Of a stretch of 64,000 nt of DNA, positions 1 through 4,182 are shown one piece after another. How positions within the stretch are numbered: the first letter of the stretch is position 1; every line of letters starts with the position of its first letter. Under the pieces are notes generated by a model. That model was given only the letters and a program-made list of their open reading frames with translations, was not told the DNA's origin and searched no databases. A program made the position numbers and the translations under genes. Origin of the DNA: Opitutia bacterium (GTDB taxonomy: Bacteria > Verrucomicrobiota > Verrucomicrobiia > Opitutales > Opitutaceae); assembly GCA_016187945.1 (NCBI GenBank), contig JACPIT010000004.1, forward strand, positions 242,854 to 306,853. Reading direction: 5' to 3'.

Positions 1-2938
1 GTCCACCCAATTCGTAGAGCGAAAGAACCACGGAACCGGACGCCCCGCGGAAAAGGAGGGTGTCCGGCTGCGTCGTTTCACAGACCAAGTGCCGGACGCC
101 GGGCTGCCGGAGCCATTCCCATACTTCGGTGGAGTGTTTCGGGCAGACGTGCGTTCCGAGCGTCTCGATTTTCTGGCTGGGCTGACCAAGCATGCTCGTG
201 CTCATCGTAGCACACGTGTTTCCTGCCGGCGCGAACCGGAGCAGTTGAGTCACGGTTTGCAGCGACAGACTCGCATCATCGGGATCTAGCGCCAGCCAGT
301 CCCACGGAATTGCTCCGTGCGGGTAGCTGAGGATCGTCCGCCTCAGCCCGCGAATCTGCCCGGCGTTCTTGAGCATGCTGCCCTCAGGAATGACCATGTT
401 CGCAAGTTTGCGTCCGATGGCCCGGCGCATGACTGCGTGATCCGCTCCGGTCTGAGCCAGCGCCTCCTGCAGGTGGGCCATCATTGGCGCGATCGCGTGC
501 GCAATCGCGCAGGGATCGAACTCGCGCGTGATCGGCACGCGGCGGTAGGCCGAATCGTAACCCTGGTAATTCAGATACAACTGCATTGCGGACGGGCCCA
601 AGCTGTGCGGCCCCAAATCACCGGAGTCGCCGCCGTCCAGCGGCACCGATGGCCCCAGCGCTCCGCGCGGCGAACGTGCGAACCGGCGTGCCACGGGTGG
701 CGCGATCAGCAGGCGCACCGCCGGCGCATTGCCCCACAGGCACACAACCTCGCGGGAAACCTTTTGCCAGTCACCTTCGTAGGGAGAGTCGTCCGAGACG
801 CTGATCGCTATAGTGAAAGCACCCTCCCCACCAGGCCCGGAAATCTGCACCGCGGTCGGCTCGAAAGTCAGGTTGCTTTCGAGCAGAACGCGCACGTCGC
901 AATCGAGCCCGAATGGCCGAACTTCGACCCTTCCCACCTTGGCCGCGCCCGGCCCCACGATCGGGCAGCCTACGCCCATCGGCACCGGGCCTCGCTGCCG
1001 GGAGGTTTGTCGTTCGCAGCGATCAAGCACTTCTTCGTAGCCTTGGGCCAGACTGTCCTGCGACGAGCGGTGCCGCTCCAGCGCACTGTGAATTTCCTGC
1101 GCGACAGACGCCACCCCCGGTGATCGCGACCGCATCGTCCGCGCGGCCAGAGTCGTCAGACCGGCCTGCACGCACGCGGAGAGCGAACTGCCGTGACGCA
1201 GACAGTCGACCGCGTAGGCCAGCCTTGAATCGGGATTTCGTTCCGACTTCATTGCGCGCAGGTCACGATGTTCGCGCGCTAAGATCTCGGTGTAGTATTC
1301 GATAAGCGAACTTGCCGAAGCCGCAAAGCTCGGCTCGAAGAAATCCGCCGTGCTTGCGTCGCGCTCGGCCCGCACCCGGCGGTGGTCGAGCGGCGTGTCA
1401 TGGACGACGGCGAGAAGGTAGTCCGGGTCTCGCAGCAGGCTGTTCAGGTAATAGAGTCCGGCCTGCGTTAAACCGCACGCATCGGGCTGGTGAAGGCTGT
1501 CCCAATTTTTGTCGAGATCCGTGCCATAAATCAGGTTGGCGATGCGCAGGCGGTTCATCGTCTTGACGATCTCATCCGCGTCGACGACGCCGCACGCCGC
1601 GAGAAAGCCATGGATCTCCGCCAGGCCGGTGGCCGGCCGCTGGGCGCGGATGACCGCGAGGATTCGATGCGTCAGCAGGAACTGGGCTTCCCCTCTCGCG
1701 TCCGGCGTGAAGAGCAGGTTGGCGACATACTCGTTGCGCTCGTAAAGGGTGTGGCTGCCGTAGATCGCCGCTGTCACCGGGTGAAAATCCGCCGCCCGTT
1801 GCTGGTCCGAATCAGCGCTCAACAGCGGCGGGAGCTTGTGGTTCGCGACCATCCGATTGAACAGCACAGCGAGATGCCGCATGTCCTCCGAACTCACGGC
1901 ATCGAAGAACTTCATGATCTGGCGGAACTCCCGCATTGGGTGTCCGGCTTCAATGAGGCGGATCAGACGCTCGCCGATCGCGTGCGCCAACGCAGGCGTC
2001 ACGGGTTGTCCGTCGATGTGCGGCGGCGCCACCATGTAGTTCGCCGCCGCATAGGCCTCGAGCCGCTTGGGCACCCGCGCCAAGATCGCCGCCGCAGCGG
2101 GCGGCCGGATCCGCACGCGAAACGGGCGCGCGGTGCGGCAGCCCAAGCGCGACTGGACGTTTTCGTAGGAGGACGGCCTCATCGTGAGGATCGTGCCCAT
2201 CCCCGTCGACGCCTTGAGGCGCAGGCAGAACGAATACATCTCCGTGATCGTCGCGTTCGGCAACGGATCGAGGTTGTCGAACACAAGGGTCAGCCAGCAG
2301 GTGTGATTCGCCGAGTGGCCGGTCAGCAACATTCCACAGGTGTCGAAAAACGCCGCTTCCGACGCGCCTTTCCTCGTGATCGGCGCAAGAGACTGTCGGA
2401 TCGCCGCGGCGTCCGCCGGCCGTTCGTGCCGCTCTTCACATGCCGCGATCCTTTCCGCCTCCTGGAGAAATTTCCGCAGGAAGGCGGGCCACCATTTTTC
2501 GTTGAACTCGCCGTCGCCGTTCCGGCTGTCCGTGTTCCCATCGAAAAACGCCAGGTGATAGGACTCGTCCTTGCACTCCTGGCTGAGAACGCCGGCGATG
2601 TAGCGGATGGAGGTCGACTTCCCCACCCCGCGCGGGCCGAGGATCGAGAGCATCCGGTTTTGCGGATGGTTGACGATGAAATCCATCACGTCCGCCTCGA
2701 TGTAGCCAGTCGGATAGCTGGCCCAACTCGCGGGTAGCGCGCCGAGCATCGCCTCCTTCACCGAAGGCGTCCACGAGTTGCCCTGCCGCTCGACTATGTA
2801 GAGGTCGCCGATCTTCGCCTTGTCACGAAAATCGAAATTCAGGCCAGACGCGGGGAAGGCATTGGCAAAGGCCCCTTGCAGAGCCGCGAACGTCGAATTG
2901 ATGGCTTCGCTGCTAAGCGAACTCGGGAGCCAGGGCAT
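1..2938 (-). CDS. Partial large P-loop NTPase (STAND/AAA-like) with middle wHTH-like segment and C-terminal CHAT-like region; continues past left edge
   Basis: Manual minus-strand translation from ATG at 2938 (MPWLPSSLSSEAINSTFAALQGAFANAF...) stays open to position 1. Walker A GPRGVGKST (~2612-2638), Walker B-like TLVFDNLDP (~2263-2290), sensor-like GTILTMRPSSYE, then winged-helix-like THRILAVIRAQRP...LTQAGLYYLNSLL, and LANMVIPEGSMLKN..LSYPHGAIPWDWLALD near the left edge. Absent from the ORF track because no stop lies in the window. Confidence 0.85.
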   Translation of the reverse strand, partial: MPWLPSSLSSEAINSTFAALQGAFANAFPASGLNFDFRDKAKIGDLYIVERQGNSWTPSVKEAMLGALPASWASYPTGYIEADVMDFIVNHPQNRMLSILGPRGVGKSTSIRYIAGVLSQECKDESYHLAFFDGNTDSRNGDGEFNEKWWPAFLRKFLQEAERIAACEERHERPADAAAIRQSLAPITRKGASEAAFFDTCGMLLTGHSANHTCWLTLVFDNLDPLPNATITEMYSFCLRLKASTGMGTILTMRPSSYENVQSRLGCRTARPFRVRIRPPAAAAILARVPKRLEAYAAANYMVAPPHIDGQPVTPALAHAIGERLIRLIEAGHPMREFRQIMKFFDAVSSEDMRHLAVLFNRMVANHKLPPLLSADSDQQRAADFHPVTAAIYGSHTLYERNEYVANLLFTPDARGEAQFLLTHRILAVIRAQRPATGLAEIHGFLAACGVVDADEIVKTMNRLRIANLIYGTDLDKNWDSLHQPDACGLTQAGLYYLNSLLRDPDYLLAVVHDTPLDHRRVRAERDASTADFFEPSFAASASSLIEYYTEILAREHRDLRAMKSERNPDSRLAYAVDCLRHGSSLSACVQAGLTTLAARTMRSRSPGVASVAQEIHSALERHRSSQDSLAQGYEEVLDRCERQTSRQRGPVPMGVGCPIVGPGAAKVGRVEVRPFGLDCDVRVLLESNLTFEPTAVQISGPGGEGAFTIAISVSDDSPYEGDWQKVSREVVCLWGNAPAVRLLIAPPVARRFARSPRGALGPSVPLDGGDSGDLGPHSLGPSAMQLYLNYQGYDSAYRRVPITREFDPCAIAHAIAPMMAHLQEALAQTGADHAVMRRAIGRKLANMVIPEGSMLKNAGQIRGLRRTILSYPHGAIPWDWLALDPDDASLSLQTVTQLLRFAPAGNTCATMSTSMLGQPSQKIETLGTHVCPKHSTEVWEWLRQPGVRHLVCETTQPDTLLFRGASGSVVLSLYELGG

Positions 2939-3039: not shown

Positions 3040-3174
3040 ATGGCAAAACTAAAGCCTGCCGAACCGAGCCGCGGCATTCTGGCCGAGCCGACGGCGGAGG
3101 CCCGACGAGACGAGCTGACGCGTGACCAGATGGGGTCATGGCTTGAGGGCCTGTTGCCCAAATCGCGCCGCTGA
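3040..3174 (+). CDS. Possible small protein (44 aa), divergent from the NTPase
   Basis: ATG preceded by GAGGAA; MAKLKPAEPSRGILAEPTAEARRDELTRDQMGSWLEGLLPKSRR*. Short and without recognised homology. Confidence 0.35.
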   Translation: MAKLKPAEPSRGILAEPTAEARRDELTRDQMGSWLEGLLPKSRR

Positions 3175-3357
3175 TTGAACGGGGCGCCGCGCGAGGCGTC
3201 TGACTCCGCCAATATGATGGGCGTGCATTCGGCGCAGAAGGAGTTGTTCAGTTATCAGGTCGATCTCGATCGGCGGGTGCGGGCCGATCACCCGCTGCGC
3301 GTTCGTATCGTTCGTGTGTTTCGTGAGCCCTTCTGCCGCTCCGTTTCTCCCCTCCCC

Positions 3358-3610
3358 GCGCTCTCTGCGTCCTCTGTGCCCTCTGTGTTTCAACCGCTGG
3401 GAATCCGGTCATGATCCAACGGGCTCGATCCGTTTAACACAGAGGTCGCGGAGCACGCGGAGCCGATCCAAACCAGGGAGGCCCGCAGGCCGGCCACGAC
3501 GAGGCACGAAATCTCGACCGCCTTGCAGCTCACAAGGCGCCTATAGGCGCTCGGCACGCAAGCCCCGCCGGACAAAAATCTTTTTGCGCCTCTTTGCGGC
3601 AATCCTTCCG
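3358..3610. repeat. Composite intergenic repeat (CTCTGCGTCCTCTGTG / AACACAGAGGTCGCGGAG, GGCGCCTATAGGCGC, TTTTTGCGCCTCTTTGCGGC)
   Basis: Same modules recur at 5306-5602, 7713-7955 and 59492-59638, in inverted pairs. Confidence 0.75.
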
Positions 3611-3792
3611 TCGCTCGCACCTCTGCGCTCTCTGCGTCCTCTGTGTTTAGCCTTTCGGCGCGGCTGTGAGCTGGGCCGACGTGAAGCGCCGCGGGCCCAG
3701 CTTGGTTCACTTCGTCGAATGCGTCGCGCGGCACGCCGAGATCATGGATCGTCGCTTCGATATCCATGATCTCCTGCGGCCGCTTCACCCGC

Positions 3793-4182
3793 TCAGCCCG
3801 GGATACCTTCGTATTTCACGCCCTGCTTGCTTCCCTTCACCGGCATGATGATGTCGAAACTCGATTGATAGAGCTGCACGCGCACGACGCCGCCTTCATT
3901 TTCCGCCGTGAAATCGCAGTTCACATTGCCGAGAAACACTTCCACCGGCGTGGCGTCGGCTCCCTGGGTGATGAAGCTGAGCTTCCAGTTGTCGGTGTTG
4001 TCGCTGGACCCTTCCAGTGACACCGGCGGCAGTTCGAAAATAGTGTCGTTCGCATCCCTGCTGAGCGTCGCGGCGCTGGAAACGGCGACGCCTAGCTTGG
4101 AGACGAATTGCACGGAGACATTGGAGAGGTCGCTGTTCGTCTGGTTTACGACGACGAACGCGCCTTTGTAGGTTTGGGACAT
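3793..4182 (-). CDS. Hypothetical small beta-rich protein
   Basis: 129-aa ORF MSQTYKGAFVVVNQTNSDLSNVSVQFVSKLG...; composition unlike the spurious ORFs; faint resemblance to Up-regulated-in-Daf-2-type beta-sandwich proteins. Confidence 0.7.
   Translation of the reverse strand: MSQTYKGAFVVVNQTNSDLSNVSVQFVSKLGVAVSSAATLSRDANDTIFELPPVSLEGSSDNTDNWKLSFITQGADATPVEVFLGNVNCDFTAENEGGVVRVQLYQSSFDIIMPVKGSKQGVKYEGIPG

Follow-up and report, generated by a model that had tools for sequence, protein, structure and literature searches.

A predicted NTPase-CHAT protein encoded beside nrdA in a Verrucomicrobiota genome: a likely defence protein whose CHAT-derived domain may not cleave

Background

Fusions of NTPases with caspase-like domains are common to bacterial and eukaryotic immunity. 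The 64,000-nucleotide stretch analysed here (the window; G000:C8:242854-306853) opens with a large minus-strand frame, directly downstream of nrdA and convergent with it, for which a preliminary description had proposed an NTPase-gated, CHAT-like protease of a defence system. This raises the question of whether the frame encodes a real protein, whether that protein carries a CHAT domain capable of proteolysis, and whether its genomic position is consistent with a role in defence. The following features of the window are referred to below.

1-2938, minus strand: NTPase/CHAT-like protein of 1074 residues, represented here by residues 1-979; contig C8:242567-242853 encodes the other 95 and the stop codon
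2144-2698, minus strand: P-loop NTPase region, approximately residues 81-265
1349-1738, minus strand: winged-helix-like middle, residues 401-530, with the motif DPDYLL...D.PL
1-601, minus strand: in-window part (residues 780-979) of the CHAT-like region (residues 780-1074), supported by alignment to a relative and comparison with a CHAT profile
293-310, minus strand: IPWDWL motif, residues 877-882 (VPWEWL in the relative), from the same alignment
77-79, minus strand: Glu954, in the column of the CHAT catalytic His (His in the relative), from the same alignment

Results and Discussion

Gene extent and coding character

As originally described, the frame starting at ATG 2938 remains open to the window edge over 979 codons, and the motifs GPRGVGKST, TLVFDNLDP, AIPWDWL and RHLVCETT all lie in its translation where they had been placed. 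On the adjoining contig sequence the same frame continues and ends about 287 bases past the window edge, stop codon included, giving a protein of 1074 aa (P0001, hereafter the window protein). The start at ATG 2938 is a choice among several, with alternative in-frame starts upstream as far as ATG 3139. It should be noted that open-frame length is weak coding evidence here, since this DNA is GC-rich and contains many long antisense frames; for example, an antisense frame of 1123 aa runs across nrdA. The GC content at the three codon positions (0.64/0.49/0.77) matches that of real genes, unlike the antisense frames, and because the gene follows real genes in this respect and a relative aligns with it end to end, we consider the frame to be coding. 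Its codon usage is less adapted than that of nrdA, nrdB or a TonB receptor gene, as expected of an accessory gene.

A single relative in a planctomycete

Among approximately 1,000 genomes of three phyla, together with viral, phage and plasmid collections, there was one true relative, P0003 (1034 aa, E = 2e-50; L143:6635-9736, minus strand), in the planctomycete genome G697. This genome was found among the 379 screened from the phylum of a Phycisphaeraceae record, and none of the eight other genomes of its class that were screened contains a protein of this type. The two proteins share their architecture over the full length, with 28% identity from end to end. P0003 has different neighbours, including a 258-aa ParB-HTH-like gene 68 nt upstream. 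No relative was found in 147 kin genomes, in about 390 other genomes of the phylum, in 45 CHAT-bearing genomes, in 368 genomes from the phylum of a Myxococcota record, or in plasmids, phages and viral contigs; these absences from large genome scans are approximate, since such scans score few candidates per genome. Two weak matches within the phylum proved to be an ABC-type Walker A motif and an unrelated frame (G477 and G341), and matches in G988 and G744 were judged to be chance, as the DNA there has overlapping long open frames in several reading frames.

The N-terminal half

The proposed P-loop NTPase is supported by a Walker A motif (GPRGVGKST, residues 101-109, window 2638-2612), a Walker B-like motif (LVFDNLD, residues 218-224, within LTLVFDNLD and TLVFDNLDP) and a sensor-like LTMRP, and both Walker motifs are conserved in P0003. 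The Pfam AAA_16 model matches below its cut-off (E = 2.6e-6; 28.4 bits versus 32.6), and Pfam returned nothing else of weight for the whole protein. Searches with NCBIfam and PADLOC gave P-loop-wide weak matches only, and no PADLOC defence model fits. The winged-helix-like middle, likewise anticipated from the sequence, is the best conserved part of the protein (42% identity to P0003), and P0003 gives a hint of a PaaX-type winged helix at E = 0.043. In its Walker motifs, its sensor-like motif, its winged-helix-like middle followed by further domains and its large single-protein format, the window protein resembles STAND/AAA_16-type immune NTPases. It differs from them in reaching no curated family, in having no recognisable repeat sensor, and in carrying an output domain that is C-terminal and probably inactive.

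A C-terminal region of probable CHAT ancestry

Taken by itself, the window protein does not uphold the CHAT assignment, because it has no match to the Pfam CHAT model (PF12770), its last 334 residues alone match nothing, and a profile built from CHATs of the phylum scores it inside the range of shuffled sequences. The relative provides the missing step. Pfam CHAT matches the last 301 residues of P0003 with E = 0.004 and 17.1 bits, below the cut-off of 24, and the C-termini of the two proteins are homologous, with an alignment score of 91 against a mean of 35 and a maximum of 57 in 300 shuffles. A two-sequence profile of the pair scores 32.8 against a CHAT profile, versus 21.9 for the best of 100 column shuffles. 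In this alignment the CHAT His strand falls over VLHLVGHQD (P0003) and VRHLVCETT (window protein) and the Cys strand over VVSACG and VISGCS, in register. P0003 has both the His and the Cys expected of CHAT proteases, and through it a CHAT ancestry of the window protein's C-terminus is supported. A single-sequence AlphaFold model of the in-window part alone was uninformative on the fold (pLDDT 39).

These results bear on a second explanation, namely a regulatory ATPase of AAA/STAND type that ends in some other alpha/beta domain, the likeness of IPWDWL to the CHAT motif being fortuitous. The window protein's own lack of a CHAT match, with a score within the shuffle range, is what such a protein would show. 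We nonetheless regard this explanation as improbable, given that the homologous C-terminus of P0003 matches CHAT and that the (V/I)PW(E/D)WL, His and Cys blocks occur in the right order.

Probable loss of the catalytic His

The preliminary description had placed the expected His and Cys partly beyond the window. This holds for the Cys (Cys998), which lies outside; the His column lies inside, at residue 954 (nucleotides 79-77), and reads Glu where P0003 has His. A frame slip does not explain Glu954: the residues around it remain in register, and no His appears at this point in the other reading frames. With Glu in the His column, and despite the retained Cys998, the window protein is probably not a protease, and the claim of an NTPase-gated protease is not sustained. 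The loss of the His is read from a two-row alignment, as there is one relative only. A missing His/Cys dyad had been named in advance as grounds for giving up the original reading; the broken dyad speaks against catalysis and leaves CHAT ancestry standing. We file the window protein as a putative NTPase-CHAT type, outside the CHAT protease family proper, because it lacks the catalytic His and falls short of the family score.

Could the protein still cleave? If this were an active CHAT protease gated by the NTPase, a different residue, such as His950 earlier in the same strand, would have to act as the base for Cys998. The preserved Cys998 with its SGC context, the nearby His and the complete dyad of P0003 are compatible with this scenario, which we consider unlikely: His950 corresponds in the alignment to the first His in the HLVGH block, P0003 has that residue plus the second His in the catalytic column, and the conserved catalytic pair in the TPR-CHAT protein of Craspase consists of His585 and Cys627 (PMC9729208). 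Compared with CHAT (PF12770) proteases such as that of Craspase, the window protein shows, via P0003, the same succession of (V/I)PW(E/D)WL, His and Cys blocks, but it is sub-threshold to the Pfam model, has Glu in place of the catalytic His, and carries an NTPase where Craspase has a TPR sensor.

Non-catalytic caspase-like domains have precedent in a described class of NTP-dependent conflict systems, where inactivity is reported for about 70% of the caspase domains that occupy the effector position (PMC7159879). The present locus shares with these systems an NTPase joined to a caspase-superfamily domain, the occurrence of inactive versions and a co-encoded small protein. It differs in that no MoxR, vWA, VMAP or EACC1 partner was recognised beside the gene, and its 132-aa small protein matches no Pfam, NCBIfam or PADLOC model.

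The slot downstream of nrdA

Four congeners retain nrdA and share parts of the far flank (from window 4652 on), and differ in the sequence in between. The slot after nrdA holds the following in related genomes.

G007: type II methylase and DpdB/DndB-like protein
G012: type II methylase (PADLOC E = 4e-168), unclassified 195-aa restriction enzyme candidate and IS200-like transposase
G008: type II restriction endonuclease (5.6e-6), methylase and IS200-like transposases
G005: PIN_8 protein
G004: ParE-like toxin
G001: ordinary-looking gene (contig end)
G011: no gene
G016 (another genus, same family): STAND-like protein of 1277 aa, close to an HSDR_N_2 frame

Differing defence-type genes thus occupy the slot in five of seven other genomes of the genus, as three methylase pairs, a PIN_8 protein and a ParE-like toxin, the last two being weaker evidence of a defence slot than the methylase loci. 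Housekeeping or metabolic genes are found there in G013, G017 and genomes of other families. On a rough judgement, a random slot should hold unrelated defence-type genes in far fewer than five of seven genomes. Our reading is that the slot is a defence hotspot in this Verrucomicrobiota genus, and that in another genus it holds a STAND-like NTPase whose N-terminus is restriction-like; the window protein is unrelated to that protein. The proposed defence role is supported by position, because of what the slot holds in these congeners. The slot is also a cheap place to seek further defence genes in this genus. The slot loci are L043:314-2936, L044:9627-11428, L047:10101-11603, L046:5882-7069, L045:11368-11814 and L049:6488-10321, and the IS200-like transposases in some of them are of the Y1_Tnp type.

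Given the probable loss of one catalytic residue and a slot used for phage-defence genes in related bacteria, the window protein most likely serves in immunity, as an unusual protein that may not cut. In full, the interpretation we favour, with moderate confidence, is a rare, accessory and horizontally exchanged defence protein, comprising a putative AAA_16/STAND-ORC-like P-loop NTPase and a winged-helix middle, as the motifs and the relative show, followed by a divergent linker and, at the C-terminus, a domain whose derivation from a CHAT protease is indicated by the relative and which is most likely non-cleaving. Another reading of the missing catalytic His and the patchy occurrence is that the gene is a relict, an NTPase-CHAT defence gene decaying and losing function in this lineage. 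This appears quite improbable, as the 1074-codon frame is intact and coding-like at its codon positions, the Walker motifs and the Cys are retained, and a downstream gene overlaps it. A family with both dyad-complete and dyad-broken members, the latter in a defence slot, would offer a handle on the role of pseudo-caspases in immunity.

A possible mode of action and the small neighbouring genes

The overlapping gene encodes 132 aa, is coding-like and lies on the same strand (L002:15185-15583, about 270-670 bases to the left of window base 1), its first 16 bases lying within the 3' end of the NTPase/CHAT-like gene. Its product had no Pfam, NCBIfam or PADLOC match, no second copy was found, and there is no evident counterpart at the P0003 locus. 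An apparent likeness to Pepco (PF24393) was dropped, as there was no Pfam match to this protein and none in the genome.

If the favoured interpretation is correct, a cue of invasion might switch the NTPase from a resting to an NTP-bound, oligomeric state, whereupon the pseudo-CHAT domain would offer a docking or regulatory surface instead of acting as a protease, and the 132-aa protein could perhaps dock on it; the outcome would be anti-phage function. A more specific version, which we hold to be rather doubtful, is a two-gene immune system in which the NTPase-CHAT protein gave up proteolysis and its NTPase-switched pseudo-CHAT domain licenses the overlapping 132-aa orphan as effector.

On the other side of the gene, upstream of it, lies a 129-aa orphan frame (window 3793-4182, minus strand) with no DNA match in the congeners' slots and no Pfam or PADLOC match. 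Window positions of about 3140-3790 contain short translated motifs like NTEDAESAEVRATEG, resembling dispersed intergenic repeats. Elsewhere in the same genome (L012:6544-13074; G000:C14), an ordinary CHAT protein of 927 aa (PF12770, 3.7e-15) with intact ASHGG and VCSAG motifs and a STAND-like NTPase of 1238 aa, whose AAA_16 match is below threshold, are encoded tail to tail.
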